Assembly (NCBI GenBank): GCA_001769385.1
Contig: MEPB01000069.1
Coordinates: 1-64,000 of the forward strand
Length of the DNA stretch: 64,000 nucleotides
Direction of reading: 5' to 3'
Origin: Bacteroidetes bacterium RIFCSPLOWO2_12_FULL_35_15
GTDB lineage: Bacteria; Bacteroidota; Bacteroidia; 2-12-FULL-35-15
Below are positions 29,001-46,132 of the stretch, one piece after another. The notes beneath the pieces were generated by a model. The model was not told where the DNA came from, ran no database searches, and worked only from the letters and a program-made list of their open reading frames with translations. Made by a program: the position numbers and the translations under genes. How positions within the stretch are numbered: the first letter of the stretch is position 1; every line of letters starts with the position of its first letter.

Positions 29001-32000
29001 CAGTTTGCACAACAGTCCAGGAGAATGTAGTTCCTCCAACCCCACTTGATAAGGCAATTCCGGTTATGCCACCTGTACAGAATGTTTGCGATGCGGGAGT
29101 TGCTATTGCTATAGGTCTAGGGCTCACCGTAATAGTAACTGTTATAGGTGATCCAGGACAACTATTGGCAGTTGGAGTAATAGTATATACAGCTGTTCCG
29201 GCAACCGTGGATGTAGCGTTTAATGTCTGAGCAATTGTTGATCCGCTTCCGGCTGAAGCACCACTTACATTTGTTTGCACAACAGTCCAGGTAAAAGTAG
29301 TGCCGACAACAGAGCCGGAAAGAGCTATTCCTGTAATATTACCAGAACAAATTGTTTGAGAGGCTGGTGTTGCGGTTGCAATTGTTGTAGGATTTACGGT
29401 AATTGTAACAGAAATAGGAATTCCAGAGCAACCGTTTGCCAAAGGAGTAATTGTATATGTCGCTGAACCCGCTGTTGTTCCTGTTGCGGTTAATATTTGT
29501 GCTATTGTAGATCCACTACCTGCAGAAGCACCCGAAACATTGGTTTGAACTACTGTCCATGAAAATGTTGTGCCGCCTATATTACTTGTTAATGCTATGG
29601 AAGGGGCAGTTCCGGAACAAATCGTTTGAGAAGCCGGAGTTGCTGTTACTATAGGTTTAGGGTTCACTGTAATCGTAACCGAGATTGGTGCTCCCGGACA
29701 ACCACTGGCTGTTGGAGTGATCGTATATACGGCAGTTCCCGCCACAGTTGAAGTAGCTGTTAATGTTTGAGCAATTGACGTCCCGCTTCCGGCAGAAGCT
29801 CCAGAGACATTGGTCTGAACAACTGTCCATGCAAATGTGGTTGAACCTAAACTGCTTGTTAAGGATATTCCGGTTATACTTCCCGAGCATATTGTTTGAG
29901 ATGCAGGAGTTGCAGTAGCTACCGGAGGAGGATTTACGGTAATAGTAACATTGACAGGCAATCCTGCACAACCACCGGCTGTTGGAGTAATTGTATAAAC
30001 CGCTGTTCCGGCAACCGTTGAAGTAGCCGTTAATGTCTGTGCAATAGGGGTTCCGCTTCCTGCGCTTGCTCCGGAAACGTTTGTTTGAACTACAGTCCAG
30101 GCAAATGTTGTTCCACCGACATTGCTTGTTAAAGCTATTGAAGGGGCGGTTCCAGAACAAATAATTTGGGAACCCGGAGTTGCTGTTACAATAGGTTTAG
30201 GGTTCACGGTGATAGTCACATTAATTGGTGTACCCGGGCAACCGCCAGCCGTTGGAGTAATAGTATATACAGCAGTGCCTGCAGCAGCAGCAGTGGCAGT
30301 TAATGTTTGGGCAATTGAAGTTCCGCTTCCGGCAGATGCGCCAGAAACATTTGTTTGAACAACCGTCCAGGCAAATGTTGTTCCCCCTAGATTACTTGTT
30401 AAACCAATGCCGGTTATATTTCCCGAACATATTGTTTGTAATGAAGGGGTTGCTGTTGCAATAGGAGGAGGGTTTACGGTAATAGTAACATTTATAGGTA
30501 ATCCTGAACAACCACCAGCTGTTGGAGTAATAGTATATACCGCAGTTCCTGCAGCAGCAGTAGTTGCAGTTAATGTTTGCGCAATAGCAGCTCCGCTGCC
30601 TGCAGAAGCACCTGAAACATTTGTTTGAACTACTGTCCATGAAAATGTGGTACTGCCTATATTGCTAGTCAAAGCTATTGAAGGGGCGGTTCCGGAACAA
30701 ATTGTTTGAGCAGCCGGAGTTGCAGTTACAATAGGCTTTGGATTTACAGTAATCGTCACAGTAATCGGTAAGCCTGCACAACCTCCGGAAGTTGGAGTAA
30801 TCGTATATACAGCAGTTCCCGCCACCGTGGAGGTTGCTGTTAATGTTTGAGCAATTGCCGCACCGCTGCTTGCGGAAGCACCTGAAACATTCGTTTGAAC
30901 AACTGTCCAAGCAAACGTTGTTCCGCCCATATTGCTTGTTAAAGCGATTCCTGTAACATTACCCGAACAAATAGTCTGACTGGTTGGGGTTGCTGTTGCA
31001 ACAGGTGAAGGATTTACTGTTATGGTATAGGGTGCTGTACCCGAACAACCTGCATAATTAGTTGCAGTGACCGTATATGTTGTAGTGCCAGCCGGATTGG
31101 CTGTAACCGTAGTTCCTGTTGTTGGGGAAAGTCCGGTAGTTGGAGCCCAGGTATAAGTTAAATTATTTGAAAATGTTAAGGTCCAATTCAACAGTGTACC
31201 TACGTCTGAAGCAGCGTTATCCTTAACAATTAAACTCCATGTTCCATTTACTGTACATCCACTAAGTAAAGAAAGAGCTTGCTCCGGGGTAAAAGTGCCT
31301 GTAAATGCAGCTGTTCCTGCTGTAATTGCAGTTCCTGCAGTTGAAAAACAGGTGTTTGTATAATTATCCCCGGATCCACCATTATTTGAGGATAAATCTA
31401 TAATTGTTCCGCTAGGGCATCTCAAAGAAATAGACACATCACCATCCCAGCCATGAGTAATATTTAAACAAACGCTTAGCAATTGGGTTCCTACAGTACC
31501 GGGTATTCCGGAAACACTAATGTTGGAAGTGACTCCGGTAGCATTATTATCAGGAATATTATAGTTGGTATAGTTGGAAAAAGATAAGGTTGGAGTGGTG
31601 TTTGTGCCGGTTGCAGTTAAAACGGTACCTGCACCACTGGCACAAATCGTATTTGTTCCGGAAACAGAAACTGTTGGAGGAGCACTAACTGTCTGGAAGT
31701 AAGTGGTTGTTAGAGTTGCTCCGCATGCACCTGTTATGGTAACAGAATAAGTAGTGGAAGCTGATGCAGTATAAGTCGCACTCACTGTGCCCTGTCCGCT
31801 TACAGGCGCAGGTGACCAGGAGTAGGTGAAAGGGCCGGTACCTGAAGCATTGGCATTTAGTGTAAACGATTGACCTGTACATAAAGTTGAACTGGCTGAG
31901 GAGGTGACATTCACAGTTTGAACTCCTGCAGTTGCCTGGACGGTATAATTACAATCATTCCCGTCCACACCATCAACCATGATATAATAAGTTTGGCCAA

Positions 32001-32805
32001 TCGTTAACGCGGTAGCATTTAAAGCAAAAGTTCCTATACCATTTCCAACACAGGTAGATTTTGCGGTAAACGAATTACAATCAGGGCTGGATAATACAAT
32101 TGCCTGAATTCCAATGGAAGGGTCGGAGCATTGACTGGAAGTAATATTAAAAGATGCTGTAGTGGCACTTGCCACAAACGAAATCCAGGAATTATTTTGA
32201 ATTGAACCACATGAAAAAACATCTGAACCACCCCAGGCAGCCCCTTCAATATTTCCATGATCCCGAGTGTACCAACCGCTGGTAGAGCCACAATACCCAT
32301 TTAAATTACAAATTATTGGAGCTGAGGTACAAACATCTGTAGCAACAGCATTTGCTCCGCAGGCTTGAGGGGTGCATCCTAAAAGCGCATTCCAACCACT
32401 CCAGCGGGTGCTTCCATCAGAAACAAATCTAAAAGTCAGACACGTGCCGGTAGAGGTATAAACACCCGGGTACATTGTAGAACCATTTAATGTAGCAATT
32501 AGTGGACTCGCGGTACTTGGACCATCGTAAATATATAAATAATCATACCCGGTTTCAAGGTCAAGCCAGTAAAAATTTGCCCTGATTTGGGTTCCGGCTG
32601 AGGAACAGAATGTTACCGAATAATTTTCATTATTACCATAGCCATTTACGCCTCCAAGGAAATCTCCGGCAACAAAACCAGAAGCAACAAATTGTCCTTT
32701 GCAAGTGCTAACTGTTTGTCCGTTATAGGCTCCGATTCGATAAAATTGAGAATAGGTTTTTGAACAAAAAAATAATATAAAAAGGAGGAGTAAAACTTTT
32801 TTCAT
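23098..32805 (-). CDS. Giant secreted repeat protein, T9SS type B sorting domain
   Basis: 3235 residues, likely a surface adhesin or matrix protein. Signal peptide at 1-19 (KKVLLLLFILFFCSKTYS). Next come a CUB-like domain (about 33-145, with YDYLYIYDGPS) and a proprotein-convertase P-like domain (about 408-540, GWDGDVSISLRCPSG). From about 598 there are 18 PKD-like repeats of about 90 residues (TICSG ... TVVQTNVSGASAGSG ... TAVYTITPTAGGC), interrupted and followed by a different family starting FxYxxxxFCQxG. Then come an Ig-like domain, a SprB-like repeat, a PKD domain (about 3060-3140) and a type B CTD (VFTPNDDNVNDVFAV ... IFNRWGEKMFEW, about 3150-3235). No catalytic domain was recognised. 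It lies 15 bases behind a small secreted-protein gene and has a strong terminator. Confidence 0.93.
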   Translation of the reverse strand: MKKVLLLLFILFFCSKTYSQFYRIGAYNGQTVSTCKGQFVASGFVAGDFLGGVNGYGNNENYSVTFCSSAGTQIRANFYWLDLETGYDYLYIYDGPSTASPLIATLNGSTMYPGVYTSTGTCLTFRFVSDGSTRWSGWNALLGCTPQACGANAVATDVCTSAPIICNLNGYCGSTSGWYTRDHGNIEGAAWGGSDVFSCGSIQNNSWISFVASATTASFNITSSQCSDPSIGIQAIVLSSPDCNSFTAKSTCVGNGIGTFALNATALTIGQTYYIMVDGVDGNDCNYTVQATAGVQTVNVTSSASSTLCTGQSFTLNANASGTGPFTYSWSPAPVSGQGTVSATYTASASTTYSVTITGACGATLTTTYFQTVSAPPTVSVSGTNTICASGAGTVLTATGTNTTPTLSFSNYTNYNIPDNNATGVTSNISVSGIPGTVGTQLLSVCLNITHGWDGDVSISLRCPSGTIIDLSSNNGGSGDNYTNTCFSTAGTAITAGTAAFTGTFTPEQALSLLSGCTVNGTWSLIVKDNAASDVGTLLNWTLTFSNNLTYTWAPTTGLSPTTGTTVTANPAGTTTYTVTATNYAGCSGTAPYTITVNPSPVATATPTSQTICSGNVTGIALTSNMGGTTFAWTVVQTNVSGASASSGAAIAQTLTATSTVAGTAVYTITPTSGGCAGLPITVTITVNPKPIVTATPAAQTICSGTAPSIALTSNIGSTTFSWTVVQTNVSGASAGSGAAIAQTLTATTAAAGTAVYTITPTAGGCSGLPINVTITVNPPPIATATPSLQTICSGNITGIGLTSNLGGTTFAWTVVQTNVSGASAGSGTSIAQTLTATAAAAGTAVYTITPTAGGCPGTPINVTITVNPKPIVTATPGSQIICSGTAPSIALTSNVGGTTFAWTVVQTNVSGASAGSGTPIAQTLTATSTVAGTAVYTITPTAGGCAGLPVNVTITVNPPPVATATPASQTICSGSITGISLTSSLGSTTFAWTVVQTNVSGASAGSGTSIAQTLTATSTVAGTAVYTITPTASGCPGAPISVTITVNPKPIVTATPASQTICSGTAPSIALTSNIGGTTFSWTVVQTNVSGASAGSGSTIAQILTATGTTAGSATYTITPLANGCSGIPISVTITVNPTTIATATPASQTICSGNITGIALSGSVVGTTFTWTVVQTNVSGASAGSGSTIAQTLNATSTVAGTAVYTITPTANSCPGSPITVTITVSPRPIAIATPASQTFCTGGITGIALSSGVGGTTFSWTVVQTGVSGASAGSGSNITQTLSTTGASAGTAVYTITPTAGSCTGTPISVTINVNPRDNASFTYGSSTYCQTGTNPTPTITGLGGGSFTSVPAGLSINSSTGLINLAASALATYTVTYTTIGICPNTSSLSITISSAPSANFTYSGSPFCQYGSNPFPIFGAGASSGTFTATPAGLNFVNVNTGQIDLSTSTPNTYTITNSIVASGGCSAASATFSVTIAPAPVATATPASQTICSGSAAGIVLTSSLGGTTYSWTIAQTGVTGASAGSGSSITQTLTATGIIAGTAVYSVTPTSGGCVGLPINVTITVNPNPVATATPAIQTICSGTAPSIALTSNIAGTTFAWTVVQTNVSGASAASGANIAQTLTATSAVAGTAVYTITPTAAGCAGTPITVTITVNPSPVATATPASQTICSGSISGIALTSNVTGTTFSWTVTQTGVTGAANGTGSSIAQALTTTGNVSGTVIYLITPTANGCQGSPISVTITINSIPTATATPSTQTICSGGVASSILSSTVTGTTFAWTVIQTGVSGATAGGGSSITQTLNATGTASGTAAYTITPTANGCSGFPITFTVTVNPNPDVIATPSPQTICSGTPTSIGLTSSITGTAFSWTVASQVGATGATAGSGSTITQTLNVTGSSSGTVIYSVIPSANGCSGTPVSVTVTVNPIPFVSATPSPQTICSGTTTSINLTSFTAGTTFSWTASNGAGISGAASGTGSTISQILTNSLTTTDVATYSITPIAAGCPGLTTIVNVNVNPIPTMNPDAQSICSGATTSISLSASVTGTTFTWPAPSQTGATGGTAGSGSSITQILTATGATSGTVTYNVTPTANSCAGIPVAITITVNPNPSATAVPVSSSICSGTTTSIPLSSNVAGTTFTWTATSSGASGESGGSGTDIAQTLSATGTTAGTVTYNITATTPAGCSSTLSPLVITVNPIPVISAVATPSTICSGATTAITMSSNVTGTVFSWTVAQTDVTGASAGSGSSISQILTASLSTPGTATYTITSLANGCTGNTEIIAIIVNPIPTVTATPTAQSICNGSSTSINLSSDVSGATLNWTENSSGTTGAFPGSGNSIIQSLSLTGTVAGNVIYTITPTANGCSGISTDVTITVNPIDDPSFSYAGSTFCQTGSDPSPTITGGSSGNFSSNPSGLVFVDTTTGQIDVSASSLGNYSITFTTNGLCPNNSTVNINITIAPDATFSYATPFCQLGMAFPVFLPNSSAGLFSATPVGLTFVNTGTGQIDLANSLPGNYSITNFIAASGGCAPATYSTTLVIDSSAIVNAGADTSICQGTNYSLAGTISGSASSIVWSTNGSGTFDDPTNLSANYTPSLADISNGIVTLTITTNDPTGVCNAAVDNLNLTITPLDNATFNYSDTTFCQSGVNPIPTITGLAGGLFSSSVGLTFVSTSTGEINLSASTAGSYSVYYTTNGTCPKTDTANLTISPTPISTFSFTSNATSFCQSDPNPSPLFGSGAFAGTFSSTPVGLIFISTLTGEIDLLNSAPGTYTVTNTIAAANGCATSIDSLVISINLPATTNAGSDGTICSGQTYSISGATIGGSALSSTWTTSGSGTFDNSAILGATYTPSATDIAAGSVTLTIATDDPSGVCGAVTDNLVLTINTTPPPPTVSNNNITACSGVSVSAIIATGTGGIITWYSDAALFNVIGTGNSYTPGVLAGSTSYWVTETLGVCQSNATQIDITINPLPVADTTAVIVTPANCGSTTGTISGITMTSGQPPFTYLWQDAGLNNVGNGSDLTNVGAGLYTLTITDGNGCSATVGPITVTSSLGVVSDFSANPITGETPLSVDFTNTSTGATNYVWQFGTGATSTAVNPTYVYIPLGNFTVCLIADNGAGCVDTSCATIDVYINSTFVIPNVFTPNDDNVNDVFAVQNKGLKTMDAEIFNRWGEKMFEWHTTNGGWDGRTTSGILAPEGTYYYIIKATGIDGKEYFEKGGFTLMR
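25655..28363 (-). repeat. Ten tandem ~270-bp repeats (second block)
   Basis: Ten PKD-like units, about 271 bases each, more divergent than the first block. The TAPSIALTSN variant occurs only once here (tenth unit overall), flanked by AGIVLTS and SGIALTS variants. Confidence 0.85.
28855..31015 (-). repeat. Eight tandem 270-bp repeats (first block)
   Basis: Eight units of about 270 bases, highly alike at the DNA level. Units alternate between an ICSG-N/S-ITGI variant and an ICSGTAPSIALTSN variant, so the true repeat is partly a 540-base dimer. Confidence 0.9.
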
Positions 32806-32820: not shown

Positions 32821-33300
32821 TTATTTTAATTGATCAATTTCATCCCAGGAAAATAAAGAAATAGTAAAAGAGCATCCTTTAAAATTAACAGGTACAGTTA
32901 CTCTGGAGTCTTTTTTTCTCAAGTGGTTGTAAGGGCCTAAATCAAATTCCAATTTGATTGATTCCTGACAATTTACTGAAAGATTTTTTTTGTCAGTAAT
33001 TTGGAAGGAATCGACATATATATGATTCATTCTAATGGCTTTTTCTGTTGAAATGTTTTTCAGATCTTCCTCTGTGTAATAAGCAGTGGCTCTTTTGTCG
33101 ATGGTTATTCCATTAACAATTATCGCAGTACTGTTTTCGTTTTTTGTTCGAAGAACAAATTGTTTTTCAGTAGAAGGAGAAACCACTTCCTTTGTCCCAA
33201 CCTGATCTTTTTGGGAAGGCTTATTCGTTTCCGTCTTTTGTTGGGAAAATAAATTCAGGCATAATAAAAGAAGGGGGAGAGTGTAAAAAAAATGTTTCAT
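32821..33300 (-). CDS. Small secreted protein upstream of the giant gene
   Basis: 159 residues, family not recognised. Residues 1-20 form a signal peptide (MKHFFYTLPLLLLCLNLFSQ, Sec type, no lipobox). A Lys/Ser/Thr-rich linker follows (about 21-45), then a compact domain of about 110 residues with two cysteines (in SVNCQES and FKGCSF) that could pair. It has no T9SS sorting domain, so it is probably periplasmic. The stop codon lies only 15 bases before the ATG of the 3235-residue protein, with no terminator between, so the two are most likely one operon. It may assist folding, anchoring or secretion of the giant protein, but that is inference from position only. Confidence 0.8.
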   Translation of the reverse strand: MKHFFYTLPLLLLCLNLFSQQKTETNKPSQKDQVGTKEVVSPSTEKQFVLRTKNENSTAIIVNGITIDKRATAYYTEEDLKNISTEKAIRMNHIYVDSFQITDKKNLSVNCQESIKLEFDLGPYNHLRKKDSRVTVPVNFKGCSFTISLFSWDEIDQLK

Positions 33301-33554
33301 GTTCGATAATGTTTAGGTTTTCGATTACAAAGTCAAAAGATTTAACGATAAAAATAATAAAAAATCAGGAGTTATAAAAAAAAAGTTTTATTATTAGATG
33401 CGTTCATATACGAAAAAGTTGCATTTATGTTATTTTTTTTGCCATTTATTTTACGTAATTATTTTTTTTATTTTTTATCAGCTTCGAAACCATAGCCCGG
33501 CATAAACTTTTAATAAATAAAGCAAAAAAAAGAAATAGACTAAAGGGATTATAA
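33301..33554. other. AT-rich spacer, nothing recognised
   Basis: 254 bases between two minus-strand genes. A near-consensus -7 box, TGACTTTG on the minus strand, stands about 30 bases before the small secreted-protein gene. No ORF, RNA gene or clear terminator was found. Confidence 0.5.
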
Positions 33555-35537
33555 TTATTTAGCAGATTTTGACATCAGATCGTAATAAAAAGATGCTTTT
33601 TTGAAATCACCATTTTTTTGGTAAAATTGGGCAAGAAATGAATTTAACTTTCTGTTGTTGGGGGTTAATTCAATTCCTTTTTCAAATAAAGGAACGGCAT
33701 TTAATGTGTCGCCTTTTATAAAATATGCATTTCCCATATTAATATACAAGATATCTGATTTTAATCCCAGGTCGATTGCATTTTGATTCAAATTTAAAAT
33801 TTTATCATATTGTTTCTTCTCCAGATATAAATTACTCAAAGGATAGTATGAATTCAGAAATTTAGGATTAAGCTCAAGACTTTTTAAGTACATTTTTTCT
33901 GCTTCTTCATTTTGTTTTAATGTTATTTGACAAGTAGCAAGATTAAAATAAGCTTCCACATAATCCGGTTTCAATAAAATAGCTTTTTTTAAATATGGAA
34001 TAGCTTCTTCTGGTTTATTGTAATATGAATAATAAACCATTCCCAAATTATTTAAGCAGCTAATATAATTCGGAATAATCCTAAGTGCTTCTTTGTAATG
34101 TTTTACGGCATTGGAAACATGGGTTCGTTTCTCTTCGTTTGACATTTTTGGATTTTCACGAATTTTTTGAATGGATGCTGCAGCAAATAAAGAATGCATA
34201 TGAGCAGATTCAGAAGCGTTTTCAACATCGGTTTTATACAAGGAATATGTATCTTTCCAGGCACTATTTCTGGCAAATGTCTTTCCGCCATAAACCAATA
34301 TAATTATTGAAATAGTGAAAAAGAACATGACATTGAATGATGAAATTTTTGCTTTAACATTTTCTACAGGGACTTTAAATAACTTCAATAATCCCCAAGC
34401 GGCAAGAATACACAAGCCTAATGATGGGATATATGCAAATCGTTCTCCAACAATACCAACAACAGGTTTCATCACATTGGTGAACATAGAAATTGCTATA
34501 AAAAAATAAAGTATGCCATACACTATTATTTTGTTCGTTTTAATGTTTTTAATTACATAATAAACAACAGGTATCAGGCCGATGATTACTAACCACACAA
34601 TAGGGTTTGTCCATGTTGCAATAGGGACTTGATTATATCCATAATAAGAAAGAAGCGGATGTGGGATTAAATACATTTTCAAATAAAAGTAAATCGTATA
34701 AAAGCCGGTAGGAATTCGCTGTAAAATACCAGTATGTTGAAATAAAGGATTCTCCCATTCTAAAACAAAACGAGATGTATCATTTACAACACTTCGTTTC
34801 CCAATTTGATAAACAATAATCGGCAATATAAAAGAGAGAAAAATTAATCTGTATTTTTTCCAGGGTAAGCGGGTAAAAAACCAGATGGTTAAAGGAATGA
34901 TAGCATAAAATGTCATAGCATCTCTTTTTGAAAGCATCGCAACGAGCATGAAAATGGCACCCCACAAAATTTGAATTTTTTTACCTGTTTCAGCGTATTT
35001 GAGATAAAAATAAAGTGATAACAGGCAGGCAAAGAAACTAAGTATTTCATCTCTGTTTTTTATGCTCATGACTACTTCAGAATGTAGCGGATGAATCAAA
35101 AAAATAGTTGCAACACTAAATGAGAAAATATAATGATAGTTTGGGAATAATTTTAATAATAAAAAAAATAAAAATGAAACACTTATAGCATACAAAATGA
35201 TATTTAAAAAATGGCTAATACTGGGCTTTTCGCCAAAAAACTGATATTCTATTGCGTAAAGGGCTTTTACTAAAGGGCGGTATTCATAACTCGATTTTTG
35301 ATCATCAACAACATAAGTTGATCTGAAAATTTCAGGAATTGCTTTTATGCCTTTATGTACTTGGGCATTATTATGAATAACATATTCATCATCCATCGAA
35401 TATTTATTGCCAATGCTTTTTCCATAAACAATAAAACTTAAAATAAAAAAGAAAATAATGATCCTTCTGTGAATCTGTTTTTCAGTTAATGCAGGAATGA
35501 TTATTTTTTTTATTTCTTTTTTACTTTTAGAACTCAT
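33555..35537 (-). CDS. GT-C type membrane protein with C-terminal TPR repeats
   Basis: 660 residues. The N-terminal 440 residues hold about ten membrane helices and a first extracytoplasmic loop with an acidic motif (YSMDDEYVIHNN, about 47-58), the pattern of GT-C glycosyltransferases. The C-terminal part (about 450-655) holds about five TPR repeats (for example AYFNLATCQITLKQNEEAEK). This combination resembles the TMTC family of O-mannosyltransferases and the many Bacteroidota relatives annotated only as TPR proteins; the substrate is unknown and may be a secreted protein or glycan. It is divergent from the KAS III cassette and has its own exact -7 box (35558-35565). Confidence 0.8.
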   Translation of the reverse strand: MSSKSKKEIKKIIIPALTEKQIHRRIIIFFFILSFIVYGKSIGNKYSMDDEYVIHNNAQVHKGIKAIPEIFRSTYVVDDQKSSYEYRPLVKALYAIEYQFFGEKPSISHFLNIILYAISVSFLFFLLLKLFPNYHYIFSFSVATIFLIHPLHSEVVMSIKNRDEILSFFACLLSLYFYLKYAETGKKIQILWGAIFMLVAMLSKRDAMTFYAIIPLTIWFFTRLPWKKYRLIFLSFILPIIVYQIGKRSVVNDTSRFVLEWENPLFQHTGILQRIPTGFYTIYFYLKMYLIPHPLLSYYGYNQVPIATWTNPIVWLVIIGLIPVVYYVIKNIKTNKIIVYGILYFFIAISMFTNVMKPVVGIVGERFAYIPSLGLCILAAWGLLKLFKVPVENVKAKISSFNVMFFFTISIIILVYGGKTFARNSAWKDTYSLYKTDVENASESAHMHSLFAAASIQKIRENPKMSNEEKRTHVSNAVKHYKEALRIIPNYISCLNNLGMVYYSYYNKPEEAIPYLKKAILLKPDYVEAYFNLATCQITLKQNEEAEKMYLKSLELNPKFLNSYYPLSNLYLEKKQYDKILNLNQNAIDLGLKSDILYINMGNAYFIKGDTLNAVPLFEKGIELTPNNRKLNSFLAQFYQKNGDFKKASFYYDLMSKSAK

Positions 35538-35557
35538 TGAATAGTTTTATAACATTC

Positions 35558-35565
35558 CAAAGATA
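35558..35565 (-). promoter_or_regulatory. Candidate -7 box for the GT-C/TPR gene
   Basis: TATCTTTG on the minus strand, exact TANNTTTG, 20 bases before the start codon. TTTC stands 19 bases further upstream as a weak -33 box. Confidence 0.5.
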
Positions 35566-35646
35566 TACTTTTTCATTGTGCGGTGAAAAGAGAATCACAT
35601 TTCAATAATTTCAAAACAATTTAAAATAACCGTTAATTTATTTTGC

Positions 35647-35654
35647 TATTTTTG
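35647..35654 (+). promoter_or_regulatory. Candidate -7 box for the KAS III cassette
   Basis: TATTTTTG, exact TANNTTTG, 17 bases before the GTG start of the first KAS III gene. No clear -33 TTTG is seen. Confidence 0.45.
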
Positions 35655-35671
35655 TTTAAACCCTCAATGGC

Positions 35672-36685
35672 GTGAAAGCAAGCATAAAAGCTATTAGTTA
35701 TTATTTACCTGAAAAAATATTCAGCAACGAGGAGTATTTTCAATTATTTCCGGAAGCTATTGTCAATAAAGAAAATTTATTAAAAATTGGTGTTCAGGAA
35801 AGACACATCATTGACCCAACTGAAACAGCCTCTGATATTGCAGTTAAAGCTGCGAAGGTATTGTTTTCGGAACACAAAATTAAGCCTGAGGAAATTGATT
35901 TTTTGATTTTTTGTGCTCAGGAGTTTGATTATTATACACCCACATCTGCTTGTGTTATTCATGAAAAATTGAATCTTCCCAAAAATTGTGGCGCACTGGA
36001 TTTTAATTTAGGTTGCAGTGGATACGTATATGGATTGAGCCTGGCTAAAGGGTTAATAGAAAGTGTAGGAGTAAAAAATGTTTTGTTTCTTACTTCCTCA
36101 ACTCTTACAAAAACGTTTCACAAAAAAGATAAAAGTTCATTGTTTATTTTTGGAGATGGAGCAACAGCAACCTTAATTTCTGCAAATAATACAACGTCAG
36201 GAATTGGTGAATTTATATTTGGTACCGATGGTAAGGGAGCAAACAAAATTATAGTGAAAGATGGAGGAGCAAGAAATTCCTTATCCGAAAGTTCGTACAT
36301 TGATAAAACAGATGATTACGGCAATACTACAAATGATTCCTCCTTTTACATGAATGGTGTTGGAGTTTTTGTTTTTGGATTAAATACTGTTCCAAAAATG
36401 GTGACAGAATTATTACTAAAAGAAAGTAAAGAGATCAAGGATATTGATCTGTTTATTTTTCACCAGGCTAATTTGTTTTTAATTGATAAGATAAGGGCAA
36501 AATTGGAAATACCGGAAGAAAAAATATTCAATTATATGAAAAATACCGGAAATACTGTATCTTCATCTATTCCGATAGTTTTGAGCGAGGCAATAAAAAG
36601 TGGTGTGGCAAAAAAAGGGGACACTATTTTATTGGCAGGGTTTGGGGTTGGTTTATCATGGGCCGCAACTATTGTTACGCTTTGA
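35672..36685 (+). CDS. 3-oxoacyl-ACP synthase III family protein (first copy)
   Basis: 337 residues, thiolase fold of the FabH/KAS III family, which condenses an acyl-CoA with malonyl-ACP. The full catalytic triad is present: Cys115 in LGCSGYVYG, His264 in FHQAN and Asn294 in TGNT. The start is GTG. First gene of a tight run: the ACP frame begins 36 bases after its stop, and the following genes mostly overlap by a base or so. Housekeeping fabH normally sits with plsX and rpmF, which are absent here, so this copy is probably dedicated to a special acyl chain. Substrate unknown. Confidence 0.92.
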   Translation: MKASIKAISYYLPEKIFSNEEYFQLFPEAIVNKENLLKIGVQERHIIDPTETASDIAVKAAKVLFSEHKIKPEEIDFLIFCAQEFDYYTPTSACVIHEKLNLPKNCGALDFNLGCSGYVYGLSLAKGLIESVGVKNVLFLTSSTLTKTFHKKDKSSLFIFGDGATATLISANNTTSGIGEFIFGTDGKGANKIIVKDGGARNSLSESSYIDKTDDYGNTTNDSSFYMNGVGVFVFGLNTVPKMVTELLLKESKEIKDIDLFIFHQANLFLIDKIRAKLEIPEEKIFNYMKNTGNTVSSSIPIVLSEAIKSGVAKKGDTILLAGFGVGLSWAATIVTL

Positions 36686-36721
36686 TTGTCAAAAAAACTA
36701 CATTTACATAAAATTTATTTT

Positions 36722-36958
36722 ATGAATATCACAGATTTTATAAAGAAAATTGAAACTGAAATTGACGAGTTTGAAGCGGGTACTTTAAACCCTGATACAG
36801 ACTTACGAAAAACAACTGCATGGACCTCCATGCATGCCTTGATAATAATTGCACTTATCGATACAGAATACAATGTCACCATTACGGGTGAGGATTTGAG
36901 AACTATTACCAGTATCGAAGACCTATACAATATAATCCAAAGTAGAATTGCAGTATAA
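36722..36958 (+). CDS. Acyl carrier protein, dedicated
   Basis: 78 residues from the ATG at 36722; a longer TTG-started frame from 36686 adds 12 residues without family match. It has the four-helix ACP outline: acidic helix I, the NPDTDLRK loop, then WTSMHALIIIALID, where Ser36 is the expected phosphopantetheine site. The usual DSL motif is replaced by TSM: the Asp before the serine is Thr and Leu is Met. Its stop overlaps the next ATG (TAATG). It sits between two KAS III genes, so it probably carries the chain they build. Confidence 0.85.
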   Translation: MNITDFIKKIETEIDEFEAGTLNPDTDLRKTTAWTSMHALIIIALIDTEYNVTITGEDLRTITSIEDLYNIIQSRIAV

Positions 36959-38016
36959 TGGCCTATCTCACAATTGAAAATATACAACTATCTGCAATAG
37001 CTGCTTGTGTTCCTAAAAACAGAGAAAGCAATGCCCATTATGATTGGATATCTGAAAAGGAAAGGGATCTTTTAATTAAAACAACCGGCATTGAATACAG
37101 ACGCATTGCGCCAAAACAGATCACAACCTCAGATATGTGTTTTGCTTCTGCTGAAGCATTGATCAATGAATTAAATATTGATCGTAAGGAGATCGAAGTA
37201 GTAATATTTGTATCTCAATCACCTGATTTTTTTTTACCGGCAACAAGTATAATTCTTCAAGATAAATTACAGTTGAGCAAAACAACAATGGCTTTTGATA
37301 TTCAATTAGGTTGTTCGGGTTATGTTTACGGACTTTCAGTAATATCCAGCTTAATGAATAACGGGAAATTTAAGAAAGGACTTTTATTAGTGGGTGACAA
37401 ATCAAGTTTTTCGCCATCAAAAAAAGATAAAAGTACGTATCCTATTTTTGGTGATGCCGGTACTGCAACATTATTAGAATATGATCCGTTTGCACAAAAA
37501 ATGGATTTCAATTTACAAAGCGATGGTTCAGGTTACAAAGCAATAATAATTCCTGATGGAGGTATGAGAAACCCTTACTCAGATGAGTCGGATAAAATGA
37601 TAGAAACCAGTCCGGGAATTATTCGGAACAGAAAAAATTTAATGCTTGATGGAATTGAAGTGTTTAATTTTTCACTGAGAGAAGCTGCCCCTAATATTTT
37701 TAATCTTTTGAAATATAATAAAACTGAAATAAATGAGTATGATTTTTTTGTGTTTCATCAGGCAAATAAATTAATGAATGAAAGTATTCGAAAAAAATTA
37801 AAAGTTGAACCCGACAAAGTTCCATACTCTTTACAAAAATATGGAAATACAAGTTCTGCATCCATTCCACTTACCATTGTTACAGAGTTGGCAGATAAAT
37901 TAAAAAATAGTAAAGCGGAAGTTATTCTTTCTGCATTTGGAGTTGGATTATCATGGGCATCAGCTGCTTTAACATTAAATAAATTAAAATGTTTACCACT
38001 AATTGAAATTGAATAA
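36958..38016 (+). CDS. 3-oxoacyl-ACP synthase III family protein (second copy)
   Basis: 352 residues, a paralogue of the gene two positions upstream. The triad is intact: Cys119 in LGCSGYVYG, His267 in FHQAN, Asn297 in YGNTSSAS. Both KAS III proteins share the stretch GCSGYVYGLS and a SPSKKDKST or FHKKDKSS segment. The ATG overlaps the ACP stop by one base and its own stop overlaps the SDR start in the same way, so translation is coupled. Two active KAS III enzymes with one ACP suggest two successive condensations or different starter units. Confidence 0.92.
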   Translation: MAYLTIENIQLSAIAACVPKNRESNAHYDWISEKERDLLIKTTGIEYRRIAPKQITTSDMCFASAEALINELNIDRKEIEVVIFVSQSPDFFLPATSIILQDKLQLSKTTMAFDIQLGCSGYVYGLSVISSLMNNGKFKKGLLLVGDKSSFSPSKKDKSTYPIFGDAGTATLLEYDPFAQKMDFNLQSDGSGYKAIIIPDGGMRNPYSDESDKMIETSPGIIRNRKNLMLDGIEVFNFSLREAAPNIFNLLKYNKTEINEYDFFVFHQANKLMNESIRKKLKVEPDKVPYSLQKYGNTSSASIPLTIVTELADKLKNSKAEVILSAFGVGLSWASAALTLNKLKCLPLIEIE

Positions 38017-38765
38017 TGACACCTTTCCATTTACATAATAAAACTATTTTGGTAACCGGAGCTTCTTCGGGAATTGGAAGGCAGATAGCCTTAAGTATTT
38101 GCGAAATGGGCGGAAATGTTGTTATTACAGCGCGGGATAAAAAGCGATTGGAAGAAACGTTTAAAAATTTAAAAGGGAAAAACAATAGTAGCATTACTGC
38201 GGACTTGCTAAATCAGAATGATTTGAGCGCTTTGGTAAACCATATTCCGATGCTTGATGGAATTGTTCATTGTGCCGGTATTGTAAAACCATTTCCAGTA
38301 AAATTTTTATCAGAAGAAAAAATACAAGAAACGTTTCAAACAAATTATAATATTCAGGTGATTTTAATGGCTCAGATAACACGTCAAAAAAAAATAAATA
38401 AAAACGCTTCCATTGTTTTTCTTTCATCTATTTCAGCTACCCATCCCCATAAAGGAGGAGCCCTTTACTCCGCTTCTAAAGCTGCCATTGAATCACTAAG
38501 TAAAGTAATAGCCTTGGAGTTTTATCCGCAAGGAATCCGGTCAAATTGCTTATCACCTGCAATGGTTAAAACACCTATGTATGATTATGCAGAAAAAGGT
38601 GCCTCCAAAGAAACCTTGGATGAACATGTAAATAAATATCCTTTAGGAATAGGCTCACCGGCAGATGTTGCCAATGCAGCAGTGTTCTTATTGTCAGATG
38701 CTTCAAAATGGATCACTGGAATAACAATTACTCTTGATGGAGGGTTTTTATTGGGAGGAATATAA
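38016..38765 (+). CDS. SDR-family reductase, FabG-like
   Basis: 249 residues, a classical short-chain dehydrogenase. The nucleotide-binding motif TGASSGIG is at 14-21, the catalytic Ser near 138 (FLSSIS), and Tyr151 and Lys155 in YSASK. An Arg at 40 after the second strand (TARDKKR) suggests NADPH. In this context it most likely reduces a 3-oxoacyl-ACP made by the neighbouring KAS III enzymes to the 3-hydroxyacyl form; a sugar substrate cannot be excluded. Its start overlaps the preceding stop and it ends one base before the glycosyltransferase. Confidence 0.92.
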   Translation: MTPFHLHNKTILVTGASSGIGRQIALSICEMGGNVVITARDKKRLEETFKNLKGKNNSSITADLLNQNDLSALVNHIPMLDGIVHCAGIVKPFPVKFLSEEKIQETFQTNYNIQVILMAQITRQKKINKNASIVFLSSISATHPHKGGALYSASKAAIESLSKVIALEFYPQGIRSNCLSPAMVKTPMYDYAEKGASKETLDEHVNKYPLGIGSPADVANAAVFLLSDASKWITGITITLDGGFLLGGI

Positions 38766-38766
38766 A

Positions 38767-39693
38767 ATGAAGGAACAATATATATCCATAGTAATACCTG
38801 TTTATAACAGCGAAATAACACTAAGAGAATTGTACTCGCGTATTGATGCCATCTTCTTTGACCTTCAAAAAAAATTTCAATTAATACTGATTGATGATGG
38901 TAGTAGTGACACTAGCTGGAACATAATTGAGGAATTACAAAAACAATATCCAGAGAAGATACTGGCTGTTAGATTTGCCAAAAATTATGGACAACATAAT
39001 GCAATTTTGTGCGGGTTTAATTATTGCATCGGGGATATCATTATTACTATGGATGATGATTTGCAGCACCCTCCGGAGGAAATGAAAAAGCTCTTGAAGA
39101 AACATGAAGAAACAGGTGCAGATGTTGTTTACGGAATGCCAATCGATAAAAAACATTCTGTTTTACGGAATGCAGGAAGTAATTTCTTAAAAAAAACTTC
39201 TGAGTTTGCGTCCGAAAAAAATGTCGGAGGGTCTTCATTTCGACTTCTAAAAAAAGATATTGTACTTGAAATAAAAAGTAACCACAATTATAACTTTTTA
39301 TATTTAGATGCGACCATTAATCACTATACTTTTAATATCGAACATGTTGATGTTGAACATCATTATCGGAAATCCGGGAAATCAGGATACACAATTGGAA
39401 AATTGATTTCGATGTACTTTAATATTCTTATAAATTATTCTGCTACACCTTTAAAATTAATGACCTATGGAGGCTTGCTATCTGCTCTACTCGCATTTTT
39501 ATTCGGGCTTCATTTTATATACAGAAAAATAATGTATAATGTCCCACTTGGCTATACCTCTTTAATAGTGAGTATTTTGTTTAGCACCGGGTTGATTTTA
39601 TTCTGCCTCGGAATTATTGGGCAGTATCTCTATAAACTTTATCAAATGCAAAATCAAAAACCGTCTTATTTTATTAAAAGTATTTTAAAATGA
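38767..39693 (+). CDS. Polyprenyl-phosphate-type glycosyltransferase, GT2
   Basis: 308 residues from the ATG at 38767; an earlier in-frame start at 38734 lies inside the SDR gene. GT-A domain with IVIPVYNSE near the N-terminus, LIDDGSSD and the metal-binding MDDDLQHPPEEM. Two membrane helices at the C-terminus (roughly 228-250 and 257-285) place it with the DPM1/ArnC/GtrB-like enzymes that make polyprenyl-phosphate sugars on the cytoplasmic face. Overlaps the GNAT gene by four bases (ATGA). It probably loads the sugar to be acylated, or one already acylated, onto undecaprenyl phosphate. Confidence 0.9.
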   Translation: MKEQYISIVIPVYNSEITLRELYSRIDAIFFDLQKKFQLILIDDGSSDTSWNIIEELQKQYPEKILAVRFAKNYGQHNAILCGFNYCIGDIIITMDDDLQHPPEEMKKLLKKHEETGADVVYGMPIDKKHSVLRNAGSNFLKKTSEFASEKNVGGSSFRLLKKDIVLEIKSNHNYNFLYLDATINHYTFNIEHVDVEHHYRKSGKSGYTIGKLISMYFNILINYSATPLKLMTYGGLLSALLAFLFGLHFIYRKIMYNVPLGYTSLIVSILFSTGLILFCLGIIGQYLYKLYQMQNQKPSYFIKSILK

Positions 39694-40370
39694 TAATAAG
39701 AAAGTATGGTATTACTCTTACAAGATTAAAGGAAAATGATATTGACTTAGTAAGAATTAAACGTAACTCAACGGATGTTAATAATCTTATGCATTTTCGA
39801 CAATCAATTACACCCCAAATGCAAAAGGAATGGTTTAAAAGCATCAATAATATAAATAATAATTATTTTATTGTGGAGTACGATAACCGGAAAATTGGAC
39901 TTGTGAATGGGAAAAACAGTGATTACAAAAAACGTCATTCAGAAGGAGGAATGTTTCTTTGGGAAAAAAAATATTGGGGTACGGTAATTCCTGCAATGTG
40001 TTCGGTAATGATGACAGATTTTACTTTTTTAGTAAATAATTTTAAAAAAAATTATATTAAAATTTTAAGATCAAATGAAAATGCAATAAATTATAACAAG
40101 CAATTAGGGTATGTTCTAACAAATGATTATCCTTCTGATCCCGAAACCCAATGGTATGTTCTTACAAAAGAAAATTATCTTTCTAATATCCCAAAAATAA
40201 GAAAAGGAATAAAAATTATTACTGCAGATAGCGAAGCTTTATCAATTAAAAATATAAGTTTTAGGGATGATACAGAGCAGGAACTAAATTTATTATACAA
40301 ACCTTTGCCGGTTTTCGTCAAGAAAAATGTTAATCTAATATTAAAAAGGGAAAACCGTAACACGTTATAA
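39690..40370 (+). CDS. GNAT-family N-acyltransferase, PseH/FlmH-like
   Basis: 226 residues. The first 145 residues look like a GNAT domain of the PseH/WecD type that acylates amino sugars (YFIVEYDNRKIGLVNGKNSD and the later NENAINYNKQLGYVLT). The last 70 residues are an extra region without recognised family. No membrane segment. Overlaps the glycosyltransferase by four bases, so co-translation is likely. In context it could transfer the acyl chain from the ACP to a nucleotide-activated amino sugar; the usual donor for the family is acetyl-CoA, so this is inference. Confidence 0.75.
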   Translation: MIIRKYGITLTRLKENDIDLVRIKRNSTDVNNLMHFRQSITPQMQKEWFKSINNINNNYFIVEYDNRKIGLVNGKNSDYKKRHSEGGMFLWEKKYWGTVIPAMCSVMMTDFTFLVNNFKKNYIKILRSNENAINYNKQLGYVLTNDYPSDPETQWYVLTKENYLSNIPKIRKGIKIITADSEALSIKNISFRDDTEQELNLLYKPLPVFVKKNVNLILKRENRNTL

Positions 40371-40443
40371 AATTGTGCATTTTAATTTTTATTTATAATC
40401 CTTTATTGTTTCTTCTTTTAAAATTTCTGAAAAACCCGATACA

Positions 40444-41568
40444 ATGACTCCGTTAAAAAGTGCTTTTCATTTTAAAGGATTAGACGGACTAAGATGCATT
40501 GGAACGTTTATCGTTTTATTTCATCATATTGAATTAGGGAAAAATGTATTTGATATTCCATCAATTTCAAAGTACTATATGGAAACGGGAACAGGTCAGG
40601 CTTTCATGACAATGTTCTTTGTGTTGAGTGGTTTTTTAATTTTTTATTTGCTAATAAATGAAAGAAAAAAAACCGGAATTGTTGAGGTGAAAAAATTCTA
40701 TCGAAAACGGATCTCGCGTATATGGCCGGTTTATTACATACTTGTGTTGACTGTCATTTTTTTGTTTTCAAACAACAATTGGTTTTCATCCCCAACGCCT
40801 TCTGTTCATGCCGGGGACTATTATAATGTAGTCTCTCTTTATCTTTTCCACTTACCAAATTTCCGAATATTTTTTACGAGCTCTTTCGTATTATTAATTC
40901 ATTTATGGAGCTTAGGGGCAGAAGAACAATTTTATGCATTATCCCCATGGCTAATTAAAAAATCCACTAATTATTTAAAAACATTTATTTTTATTATAGT
41001 TCTTAAAGTGAGTATTAAATTAATGGTAGCTCTTGCTTACAGGACACTTCCAATCTCCTCTGAATCAATAATGTTTTTAAAGCATTTAGAGACATTTTTA
41101 TTTAAATTCCCAATAGAGGCTTTCGCTATTGGAGGAATAATTGCTTATTTATTTATTGAAAAAAAGGAAAACGTTTTAAACTATTTGTATAAACCCTATA
41201 TTCAATGGGTCAATCTATTGTTGATGCTGGCAATTGTTCCACTAAGTCATAGGTCAGAAAGCTTACAGCTTTTGGTCGCCATAAATTTTGCAATCATTAT
41301 CATAAATCTGACAGGTAACACCAAGCCATTGTTTATGCTTGACAATAAATACTCAAATTATATTGGTCAAATATCTTATGGAATATACATGTATCAAATT
41401 CCTTTGGTATATTTAATATTAAATATATTTAAACCTTATTATTCGGCAGATCATATGGTTTTATGGAACATTTTATATTACAGTACTTGCACTCTATTGT
41501 CAATGGTTACTGCAATTATTTCTTATGAATTGATTGAACGTAAATTTATTAATTGGGCAAGGAGTTAA
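40444..41568 (+). CDS. Membrane O-acyltransferase, acyltransferase_3 family (copy 1)
   Basis: 374 residues, about ten membrane helices, related to OafA. Conserved features: LDGLRCIGTFIVLFHH (motif with the catalytic His at the end of helix 1), FFVLSGFLI, and RKRISRIWPVYY. It likely moves acetyl or another acyl group across the membrane to a surface glycan. 73 bases behind the GNAT gene with no terminator, so it could belong to the same transcript. A close paralogue lies at 42921-44030 on the same strand. Confidence 0.9.
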   Translation: MTPLKSAFHFKGLDGLRCIGTFIVLFHHIELGKNVFDIPSISKYYMETGTGQAFMTMFFVLSGFLIFYLLINERKKTGIVEVKKFYRKRISRIWPVYYILVLTVIFLFSNNNWFSSPTPSVHAGDYYNVVSLYLFHLPNFRIFFTSSFVLLIHLWSLGAEEQFYALSPWLIKKSTNYLKTFIFIIVLKVSIKLMVALAYRTLPISSESIMFLKHLETFLFKFPIEAFAIGGIIAYLFIEKKENVLNYLYKPYIQWVNLLLMLAIVPLSHRSESLQLLVAINFAIIIINLTGNTKPLFMLDNKYSNYIGQISYGIYMYQIPLVYLILNIFKPYYSADHMVLWNILYYSTCTLLSMVTAIISYELIERKFINWARS

Positions 41569-42019: not shown

Positions 42020-42844
42020 TTGCTTACCCGAATTTTATTCATTTTAAAACAGAAGGCACGAAAAATTATTGTTCAATTAGGATATTTTTCAAAACCCAAT
42101 TTCCTTGTTGTTGGTGCACAAAAATCAGGAACAAGTGCTTTGTTTAATATTTTGAAACAACATTCAAAAATTTCGGGTGCTATTCGAAAAGAAATTCATT
42201 TTTTTGATAATGATAAAAATTTTCCTTGTACTGATTTTAGTACCTATCATTTGTATTTCCCATTTTCTTACGAAGTTCCTAAAGGAAATTTAATTTTTGA
42301 AGCTACACCATCGTATTTATTTAAACCTAAAGTTGCTCTAAGAATATTTGAATATAATCAGGACATGAAAATTATTATATGTCTTAGGAACCCTGTTGAA
42401 AGAGCTTTGTCGGCATGGACGATGTTTCATTACGGATTTCGGAATCATAAAAAATATTCTCATTTGTACGATGAAAGGTCATTTCCCGTGGCCATCGAAG
42501 AGGAGTTAAAAGATTTAAATAATTGCCCATTTAATTCTCCTAAACCACCTTACCTGCAAACAGGAATTTATCATACACAGATCAAAAAATATTTTGAACT
42601 TTTTCCAAGAAAAAACATTTTAATACTTGAACATAGTGACCTAAATAATAAACATGATCAGACAATAAAAGAGATATGTGATTTTTTGAATGTGCCGGAT
42701 GAAAAATTGCCTCAGTTGCGTCTGAACACAAGTTTAAAGGATAACAAAAAGGAGTATGATGAACAAGTAGAGATTTTGAGAAAATTTTACAAACCGCATA
42801 ATGAATTATTATATAAATTAATTGGCAAAAATTATAATTGGTAA
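42020..42844 (+). CDS. Sulfotransferase (heparan N-sulfotransferase-like)
   Basis: 274 residues, cytoplasmic PAPS-dependent sulfotransferase fold. The 5'-phosphosulfate loop is GAQKSGTSALF (about 31-41) and the 3'-phosphate site is IICLRNPVERALSAW (about 117-131). The order and spacing resemble the sulfotransferase_1 group that includes heparan sulfate N-sulfotransferases, so a sugar hydroxyl or amine is the likely acceptor. The start is probably TTG at 42020, because no ATG precedes the P-loop. It lies between two paralogous acyltransferases on the same strand. PAPS synthesis genes are not in the window. Confidence 0.88.
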   Translation: MLTRILFILKQKARKIIVQLGYFSKPNFLVVGAQKSGTSALFNILKQHSKISGAIRKEIHFFDNDKNFPCTDFSTYHLYFPFSYEVPKGNLIFEATPSYLFKPKVALRIFEYNQDMKIIICLRNPVERALSAWTMFHYGFRNHKKYSHLYDERSFPVAIEEELKDLNNCPFNSPKPPYLQTGIYHTQIKKYFELFPRKNILILEHSDLNNKHDQTIKEICDFLNVPDEKLPQLRLNTSLKDNKKEYDEQVEILRKFYKPHNELLYKLIGKNYNW

Positions 42845-42920
42845 TTATTTTTCGATTTCAGGATCTTTATTTTCCAAAATGACAATGAACTAATTTTCTC
42901 AATTTTGAAAAAATAATAAT

Positions 42921-44030
42921 GTGAGAAAAACATTTTACATACGAGGATTAGATGGCTTAAGATTTCTGGGATCCTTTTTGGTATTATTTCATCATACCGA
43001 ACGGGGAAAAACACTATTCGGATATCCTGCCGGATTGTCTTTTACCAAAGGAATTGGCGATGCTTCAATGACTTTATTTTTTACTCTGAGTGGTTTTTTG
43101 ATCACTTATATTTTGTTAAATGAAAAAAAGAAAACAGGAACCATCAGCCTCCCCAATTTTTATAAAAAACGTATCTCACGGATCTGGCCATTGTACTACC
43201 TCCTTGTTTTTTCTTCCATCTTCTTTTTTGAAAAGAGTGATTTGTTTGCTTTGCCCGGGCCTCAGGAGCCCACAGATTATCGTATAGCAATACCGCTTTA
43301 TCTATTTCAAATGCCAAATTTTCATGTTTTTTTTTCTGCTGCAATGCTGGCCGCTCTTGGCCATTTGTGGACAATTGGGGTGGAAGAACAGTTTTATGCA
43401 ATTTCACCTCTAATAATTAAGAGAACCAAAAATTTCGTAAAAGCATTTGTAATTATTATTAGCATAAAAATTTTTATAACAATTGCTTTCGCATTTTCTT
43501 TCAGGTTTTTAGCACTAACAATTGATCAGCTAAAGGATCTGAAGACTTTAAGCCGTTTTTTATATAATCTGCGATTTGAAGCTTTTGCTGTAGGTGGAAT
43601 TGCGGCATTTGTGTTTCTTGAAAAAAAGGAAAAAATATTGGACTTCATCAACAGACCTATTATTAAATATACAAATCTTGTAATTTTACTGCTGGCGATG
43701 CCTTTCGGACATTGGTCGGATACGTTGCACGTTGTTTATGCAGTATGCTTTAGTATAATCATCATTAATCTGGCAACTAAAACGACACCCGTTTTCTTTT
43801 TAGACAATAAATATATCAGGTACCTGGGTCAGATATCATACGGAATATATATGTATCAGGCACCGGTAATCTATTTGGTATCTAACTCACTTCGCCCTTA
43901 TTATTCAAGTGAGCATCTGATCTTATGGAATATTACTTATTCTGTGGCATGCTTTGCTTTATCAATAGGTATTGCAATTGTTTCATATGAACTTGTTGAA
44001 AGAAAGATCATTGCTTTGGCAAGAAAATAA
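42921..44030 (+). CDS. Membrane O-acyltransferase, acyltransferase_3 family (copy 2)
   Basis: 369 residues, about ten membrane helices. Motifs as in copy 1: LDGLRFLGSFLVLFHH, FFTLSGFLITY and KRISRIWPLYY. It can be aligned with copy 1 along its whole length, including QISYGIYMYQ near the C-terminus, so one arose from the other by local duplication with a sulfotransferase gene between them. The start is GTG at 42921. It is convergent with the glycosyltransferase at 44139-44996. Confidence 0.9.
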   Translation: MRKTFYIRGLDGLRFLGSFLVLFHHTERGKTLFGYPAGLSFTKGIGDASMTLFFTLSGFLITYILLNEKKKTGTISLPNFYKKRISRIWPLYYLLVFSSIFFFEKSDLFALPGPQEPTDYRIAIPLYLFQMPNFHVFFSAAMLAALGHLWTIGVEEQFYAISPLIIKRTKNFVKAFVIIISIKIFITIAFAFSFRFLALTIDQLKDLKTLSRFLYNLRFEAFAVGGIAAFVFLEKKEKILDFINRPIIKYTNLVILLLAMPFGHWSDTLHVVYAVCFSIIIINLATKTTPVFFLDNKYIRYLGQISYGIYMYQAPVIYLVSNSLRPYYSSEHLILWNITYSVACFALSIGIAIVSYELVERKIIALARK

Positions 44031-45022: not shown

Positions 45023-46132
45023 TTAATCTTTTCTGTATTTGGCACCTATTTCGTTGTACTTATTAAAGTACCCGAATTTAGTATATAGTTTTTTCGAAAC
45101 AGCTCTTGAAATGTCACGCACCTTCATTGGAAGCCTATAATAAAGTTTATTGATCAGGTAATTTGTAAAAAGGATCAAGTTGCTTTTATTTGCAGAAAAA
45201 AAATAAGATAATCTCTGCACATTTGATGATGGAAAATAGTTGTATTTTTTAGCATAATCCCCTGTAATATAATCTATAACTTCAATTTCTGAAATAGTCA
45301 ATTCATTTTTCCATTTATCAATTCGTTCGGTATTGATCGGATTTAACAAATTTACGTGAATTTTATCAACGATACCAGTCATTACGTCATTATTAGTGCG
45401 TTCATCATTAAAAATTCTGCGAGTAGTTTTATGAAAATTAAGTACGTTGGAATCAAATGAAATAGTTAAAAACTCAAAGAGTTCAGATAGATATTTTTCA
45501 GGATTGGTTACCAGATCTTCATAACGCAAAGTGTAAAAAAGGGTAGGGTGTTTAATTTTGTAATAATCAATATACCTGTTATGTCTTTTCCAGCTTTGCG
45601 CCAGTCGGGCAACATTTTTAATCTTAAATGCTTTTCTGGTAGAAATTACATTATCTCTGTAATCACGTATTATATGTATGAATTTTGCATTTGGAAACAG
45701 TTCAGTTAATTCATTGATAAAAAAGCTGTAGATTGGGTTTTTATCCGCAAGCAAGGATGTTTTTTCTTTTGGAAAAGGAGAAGAAACAGACAAATAGACA
45801 AGCTTACAAAGTATTGAAAAATCAAGTTGTCTTAATGGGTATGAATTAAAAAGTTTTTTTAAATTATCGGCATTTATTTTCCATAAAAATGAAAATCGTA
45901 CATCCGTATAAAGATCAATAATAAATTCATCTAATTTTTCAGTGGTCCATTTATTTACCGTTGAATATTTCTGTTTTAAATGGATTACAAAGGGGGATTC
46001 ATTTGCCGTTAGTACTTCCGGATTAGCATCTAAAATAGTTTGCAATAAGGATGTCCCAGACCGACCTTTCCCAACTATAAAAACGATGGGCAAATTTTTT
46101 ATTTCTTCAATGGTCAGCAATTTATCAGACAT
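45023..46132 (-). CDS. Sulfotransferase (second in tandem)
   Basis: 369 residues. PAPS-binding elements: FIVGKGRSGTSLLQTIL (about 18-34) and FIHIIRDYRDNVISTRKAF (about 152-170). Related to the protein encoded by the gene directly before it on the strand, with which it abuts exactly: its ATG starts on the base after the upstream stop codon. The C-terminal 60 residues are basic and may dock on membrane. Substrate is probably a glycan, given the neighbours. Confidence 0.87.
   Translation of the reverse strand: MSDKLLTIEEIKNLPIVFIVGKGRSGTSLLQTILDANPEVLTANESPFVIHLKQKYSTVNKWTTEKLDEFIIDLYTDVRFSFLWKINADNLKKLFNSYPLRQLDFSILCKLVYLSVSSPFPKEKTSLLADKNPIYSFFINELTELFPNAKFIHIIRDYRDNVISTRKAFKIKNVARLAQSWKRHNRYIDYYKIKHPTLFYTLRYEDLVTNPEKYLSELFEFLTISFDSNVLNFHKTTRRIFNDERTNNDVMTGIVDKIHVNLLNPINTERIDKWKNELTISEIEVIDYITGDYAKKYNYFPSSNVQRLSYFFSANKSNLILFTNYLINKLYYRLPMKVRDISRAVSKKLYTKFGYFNKYNEIGAKYRKD

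Follow-up and report, generated by a model that had tools for sequence, protein, structure and literature searches.

We identified a near-contiguous cassette of six genes at 35672-40370 of the window, which is the whole 64,000 nt stretch of DNA analysed (MEPB01000069.1, positions 1-64,000, from Bacteroidetes bacterium RIFCSPLOWO2_12_FULL_35_15, GCA_001769385.1). These genes encode, in order, a KAS III, an ACP, a second KAS III, an SDR, a GT2 and a GNAT protein, with catalytic residues intact. The cassette is probably a self-contained pathway to a lipid-linked N-acylated amino sugar, which a neighbouring GT-C glycosyltransferase would pass to a periplasmic or surface acceptor; as to its kind, an acyl-sugar pathway is well supported. 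The six-gene cassette was described in no paper found by our paper searches, and what is new in it is the joining of a known acyl-making module to a GNAT protein, a lipid-sugar synthase of its own and a TMTC-like transferase.

Gene content and catalytic residues of the cassette

The original prediction had placed six genes at 35672-40370, and all six open reading frames were found there, with better starts than those of the longest reading frames chosen for the ACP gene (ATG 36722) and the GT2 gene (ATG 38767). All six lie on the plus strand. The genes for the first KAS III (KS1, 35672..36685) and the ACP (36722..36958) are separated by about 36 nt, and those for the SDR (38016..38765) and the GT2 (38767..39693) by 1 nt; the gene for the second KAS III (KS2, 36958..38016) overlaps both the ACP and the SDR genes by 1 nt, and the GT2 and GNAT (39690..40370) genes overlap by 4 nt. 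These overlaps and gaps suggest that the six genes form one transcript. The sequence TATTTTTG at 35647-35654 (plus strand), just 5' of KS1, presumably fits the Bacteroidota -7 promoter element and is a possible, if weak, promoter candidate in this AT-rich region. Rfam recognized no RNA family anywhere in the window.

Profile searches matched both KAS III proteins to PF08545/PF08541 and to FabH models. KS1, a member of the FabH subfamily and the probable enzyme of the priming condensation, scored 256.7 bits against PRK09352, which is over the cut-off. The Cys-His-Asn residues predicted for both enzymes were seen in alignments (C115, H264 and N294 in KS1; C119, H267 and N297 in KS2) and were kept in 25/25 KS1 relatives and in all KS2 relatives but one, a paralogue with a Cys-to-Ser change at a locus of a different kind. 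KS2, recognized by profiles, homologue search and active site, was conserved more strongly than any other cassette marker. At the position of FabH Phe87, which we take to be a substrate gate, the alignment contained G, T, F, L or A in KS1 proteins and mostly Leu in KS2 proteins. A recent duplication as the origin of the KAS III pair was not favoured, since KS1 and KS2 are 34% identical and belong to different solved subfamilies (nearest solved relatives 3gwa and 4efi, respectively).

The ACP had no Pfam match at 1e-3 and a weak match to an NCBIfam ACP model; its predicted phosphopantetheine serine lies in W-T-S-M, and this site (W-S/T-S-M/L) was conserved in all aligned orthologues. The SDR resembles the 3-oxoacyl-ACP reductase FabG, with 161.6 bits against PF13561 and FabG-type NCBIfam matches, and by eye it contains TGxxxGIG, SS and YxxxK, as expected from the Ser-Tyr-Lys residues that had been predicted.

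The GT2 protein is a predicted polyprenyl-phosphate glycosyltransferase of the ArnC/GtrB type. It matched ArnC structures with an E value of 1.9e-42 over 303 residues and the GtrB protein sll0501 with 6.5e-34, its GT2 domain and C-terminal membrane part aligning full length with this type, and it scored 176 bits against PRK10714. These family assignments agree with the expected make-up of the cassette: a chain-making set (dedicated ACP, two KAS III enzymes, ketoreductase) and, after it, a GNAT protein and a polyprenyl-phosphate glycosyltransferase.

The GNAT protein scored 46.8 bits against the PseH model TIGR03585, under its cut-off of 93.1, and its AlphaFold model (pLDDT 96.8) had a GNAT fold whose best PDB match was Helicobacter pylori PseH (4ri1, E 3.7e-13), with SpeG polyamine acetyltransferases next. 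A CoA P-loop is common, although not universal, across the GNAT superfamily. The consensus form of this loop, Q/R-x-x-G-x-G/A (PMC4964394), was present in 0/41 GNAT orthologues, and all three defining residues were missing in 37. For other GNAT proteins, carrier-protein acyl donors have been shown (SbzI/SbzC) or cited (FeeM) (PMC6331615), and the absence of the P-loop is compatible with the ACP as acyl donor to the cassette GNAT. It is no proof of such a donor, because PseH has an atypical P-loop and yet uses acetyl-CoA (PMC4964394).

Conservation of the cassette among relatives

Close KS2 homologues were found in 36 of the 148 relatives searched. The order KS1-KS2-SDR-GT2-GNAT was kept in 22/35 related loci, usually with a recognizable ACP between KS1 and KS2, and a reduced ACP-KS2-GT2-GNAT core, without KS1 and SDR, was present in 9/35. 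Because gene order is conserved across many families, the cassette is not a chance grouping. Among the 80 named GTDB loci that we kept, GT2 and GNAT accompanied KS2 in 41, which belong to Bacteroidales, Flavobacteriales, Chitinophagales and Sphingobacteriales. The GNAT gene is almost confined to cassette genomes, being present, outside the genus, in 19/20 KS2-positive genomes compared to 3/92 others. Related loci also occurred on two MAGs labelled Gammaproteobacteria.

Several further features of these loci were observed. Cassette-like loci L152 and L136 lie on contigs labelled as Moraxellaceae and Alcanivoracaceae MAGs, and GC content drops from 64% to 46% along L152, as in a transferred island. 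In five loci from several families (L043, L048, L049, L056 and L061), the cassette or the GT-C gene abuts rpsL-rpsG-fusA, suggesting an old insertion site beside this ribosomal operon. Tandem genes of about 450 aa stand divergent to ACP-KS2-SDR-GT2-GNAT in Bacteroidales loci such as L096, L106 and L123; those read in L096 looked by eye like B12-binding radical SAM enzymes. Another Bacteroidales locus has, after the GT-C gene and near the cassette, a gene of about 560 aa that looks by eye like an AMP-dependent ligase (L110:3501-5192), and L107, L126 and L133 have similar-sized genes in that place.

The KAS III, ACP and SDR proteins might instead make a small polyketide, a pigment or a free lipid, with GT2 and GNAT as accidental or accessory neighbours, as two KAS III enzymes and an ACP can initiate polyketides and weak matches to DarB and chalcone-type models were obtained. 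However, the best matches were FabH-like, not DarB, GT2 and GNAT were retained even where KS1 and SDR had been lost, and no aromatase, cyclase or polyene genes lie alongside. A place for the KAS III homologues in pigment or lipid pathways, which the original prediction had named as evidence that would count against it, was checked, and the closest homologues share the cassette's neighbours. Neighbouring genes and model scores thus led us to reject such a role for the KAS pair, which we regard as very improbable.

Evolutionary distances of KS2, SDR, GT2 and GNAT were correlated with one another (r 0.69-0.84), and those of KS1 were not (r about 0.3). With strong support, trees grouped L039-L041 with the window for KS2 and not for KS1, and L052, L057, L059 and L060 with the window for KS1 and not for KS2. 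This discordance of KS1 distances and trees, together with the variable residue at the Phe87 position, suggests that the priming enzyme may have been exchanged between loci, so that the acyl group would vary.

Related acyl-making genes also occur in other settings. Nine Flavobacterium loci (e.g., L145, F. johnsoniae CI04) have a KS2 relative with an SDR, KS1 homologues, a Rieske oxygenase and PglD, beside DegT; gene order was read in all nine and domains were tested on L145 only. In L147, KAS/ACP/SDR-type genes are coupled to GNAT and a NeuB family synthase. Because its relatives join PglD in Flavobacterium and GNAT plus NeuB in L147, the KAS/ACP/KAS/SDR set appears from these sequences to be a mobile acyl-making module that is paired with different N-acyltransferases. 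The Rieske-type oxygenase lies in or beside the acyl module (L145:10053-11153, PF00848/PF00355, with the same placement in other Flavobacterium loci), and a similar oxygenase was judged by eye to be encoded at L152:8876-9913, suggesting oxidised acyl chains at such loci.

The GT-C partner and its candidate acceptor

The six-gene unit of the original prediction is real, but it stopped short of a co-occurring GT-C gene (33555..35537, minus strand) and of variable tailoring genes downstream. The GT-C gene is divergently transcribed from the cassette and encodes a 660-aa TMTC-like protein with a membrane part followed by C-terminal TPRs, which we propose, from its TPRs, motifs and co-occurrence, to be the periplasmic transferase. 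In alignment, its orthologues keep DD, YRP, RD, K and ER motifs, and DD, YRP, R-D, K and R motifs have been described for human TMTCs (PMC7801869). Pfam searches on 20 GT-C orthologues gave matches to the TMTC model PF08409 in 12 (E up to 1) and to PMT_2 in seven; these were in relatives only, the window protein itself having no Pfam GT-C match (PF08409/DUF1736 or PMT/ArnT), and the top 50 results of a structural search with its model were all TPR proteins.

Within the genus, a close GT-C orthologue (at least 50% identity) was present in 16/17 cassette-positive and 0/19 cassette-negative genomes (Fisher p 2e-9, kinship ignored). This count includes as positive one genome, G007, with GNAT and GT-C on separate small contigs; leaving it out gives a 15/1/1/19 table. 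Among genomes from outside the genus, 7/20 with the cassette had GT-C matches of >350 bits, compared to 1/92 others. Because GT-C/TPR paralogues are common, including in cassette-negative genomes, only the close orthologue is informative. The GT-C gene is not adjacent to the cassette in every family.

It is also conceivable that the acyl-sugar is added to lipid A, or to a different lipid of the envelope, in the manner of ArnC/ArnT, as GT2 is nearest to ArnC and the GT-C superfamily includes ArnT. However, the cassette is without Arn pathway genes, the TPR domain at its GT-C partner's C-terminus points to interaction with a protein, and the window GT-C lacks a PMT/ArnT-specific match, and we consider this role improbable.

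Possible tailoring enzymes are encoded on the plus strand beyond the cassette: an acyltransferase_3 (40444..41568; PF01757, 90.8 bits), a sulfotransferase (42020..42844; PF00685, 69.6 bits) and another acyltransferase_3 (42921..44030; PF01757, 101.3 bits). A sulfotransferase family protein (PF13469, 100.6 bits) is encoded on the minus strand at 45023..46132. The tailoring genes near the cassette vary among relatives and include PF05118 hydroxylases, which in the genus were found in 10/17 cassette genomes compared to 0/19 others and mostly adjoin the cassette.

On the other side of the GT-C gene, also on the minus strand, lie a gene for a 159-aa protein with a signal-peptide-like N-terminus (32821..33300), a possible partner, and then a gene for a 3235-aa repetitive surface protein (23098..32805) with a T9SS gliding C-terminal domain (TIGR04131 match, 23101-23361). 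In 12/14 genus loci with an adjacent GT-C gene, the next same-strand genes likewise encoded a signal-like small protein and a giant repetitive protein, and the giant proteins of genus loci carry the T9SS gliding C-terminal domain where their end is in view. In four other loci (L055, L094, L120 and L160), a giant T9SS-type protein is encoded directly upstream of KS1. A second giant repetitive protein with a gliding-type T9SS C-terminal sequence is encoded at 47263-53379 (minus strand), on the other flank of the cassette region. We do not claim adjacency to a T9SS adhesin as a general rule: it holds in the genus, whose loci share ancestry, and in a few other lineages, and the C-terminal-domain pattern was seen in only 12/77 cassette loci, in which the locus ends truncated many adhesins. 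The source 5.4-Mb genome encodes 61 giant T9SS-type proteins, and many loci are without one.

We hypothesize that the giant surface adhesin is the acceptor of the GT-C enzyme, and it is the most interesting candidate. A dedicated surface-protein glycosylation, in which the cassette would make an N-hydroxyacyl amino sugar linked to polyprenyl phosphate and GT-C would put it on the giant repeat adhesin before T9SS export, is a possibility that we hold tentatively. Human TMTC-type enzymes put mannose on cadherins, and this reading, if true, would make the system the bacterial equivalent of O-mannosylation of cadherins, using a custom acyl-sugar.

Proposed pathway and comparison with known systems

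In the pathway that we propose, priming of the dedicated ACP would be the task of KS1, through condensation of a short acyl-CoA with malonyl-ACP. The SDR would reduce the keto group, and KS2 would add a second two-carbon unit, after which the SDR may reduce again. By analogy, the product would be a short hydroxyacyl-ACP, from 3-hydroxybutyryl to 3,5-dihydroxyhexanoyl. The GNAT protein would take this acyl group from the ACP and place it on the amine of an amino sugar whose synthesis is encoded elsewhere in the genome, and the ArnC-type GT2 would, probably in that order, link the sugar to polyprenyl phosphate. The lipid-linked sugar would then be flipped, and the TMTC-like GT-C/TPR enzyme would move it onto an acceptor in the periplasm or at the surface; sulfation or O-acylation would be optional. 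No flippase was identified.

The analogy is with Flavobacterium psychrophilum, in which wfpC (KAS), wfpD (ACP), wfpE (KAS), wfpF (ketoreductase) and wfpG (acyltransferase, PglD homologue) were predicted by the authors to make a 3,5-dihydroxyhexanoyl group and attach it to the 4-amine of O-antigen Qui2NAc4N, a residue whose amide structure was solved by NMR (PMC6519341). The parallel with these R-group genes that had been drawn for the window stands for the KAS/ACP/KAS/reductase set and fails for the surroundings, as no O-antigen cluster with amino-sugar genes was found at 30000-48000 and the transferase is by profile and model a GNAT, not PglD-type (LbH). Likewise, the predicted acylation of an amino sugar is supported by the GNAT protein and the polyprenyl-phosphate glycosyltransferase, and not by amino-sugar genes, of which the cassette has none. 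DegT aminotransferases, present in 30/30 cassette genomes tested with three or more in each, are near-universal and not decisive as a pointer to the sugar.

The known example in F. psychrophilum concerns an O-antigen, and the acyl-aminosugar could likewise belong to LPS O-antigen or capsule, as a residue or as a side group, with GT2 and GT-C as a GtrB/GtrC-style branch-adding system. Flavobacterium relatives adjoin PglD and DegT, GT2 resembles GtrB, and acyltransferase_3 proteins and sulfotransferases are common glycan decorators. However, none of the DegT-rich glycan clusters of the source genome (contigs 68, 74, 76 and 78) contains the cassette, relatives' cassettes are beside ribosomal or unrelated genes, and the GT-C protein has a TMTC-type TPR domain, which goes with protein acceptors; we judge an O-antigen or capsule role to be unlikely.

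The proposed pathway brings together three elements previously seen apart: a private ACP on which a chain is built in fatty-acid style, a sugar donor linked to a lipid, and a transferase of TMTC-like type. The wide distribution of the set in Bacteroidota makes it a direct way into the function of bacterial TMTC-like enzymes and into a class of acylated surface sugars that is probably diverse. The enzymes that carry out the transfer in protein O-glycosylation of Bacteroidota are reported to be still undiscovered (PMC12871550).

Compared by description and gene letter only, as F. psychrophilum was not among the 80 GTDB loci kept, the first four cassette genes are of the same kinds as wfpC-wfpF and apparently in the same order. 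The wfpC-G set ends in a PglD homologue and belongs to a Wzx/Wzy O-antigen cluster that also contains pglE/pglF, whereas the cassette has a GNAT instead, carries its own ArnC-type GT2 and is tied to a TMTC-like GT-C outside such a cluster. The GNAT protein shares its fold, and in our proposal its chemistry on a sugar amine, with the UDP-4-amino-sugar N-acetyltransferase PseH, and differs from it in a C-terminal extension, a different P-loop and a proposed carrier-protein donor. Similarity of GT2 to ArnC and GtrB includes the C-terminal membrane part; however, GT2 is far under the ArnC equivalog cut-off (176 vs 529), it is not accompanied by an ArnA/B/D/T set, and its sugar is presumably different from theirs. 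With the TMTC O-mannosyltransferases, the GT-C protein has in common a membrane part with DD, YRP, RD, K and ER motifs followed by TPRs, but it is bacterial, and its proposed donor is not Dol-P-Man but polyprenyl phosphate carrying an acylated amino sugar.
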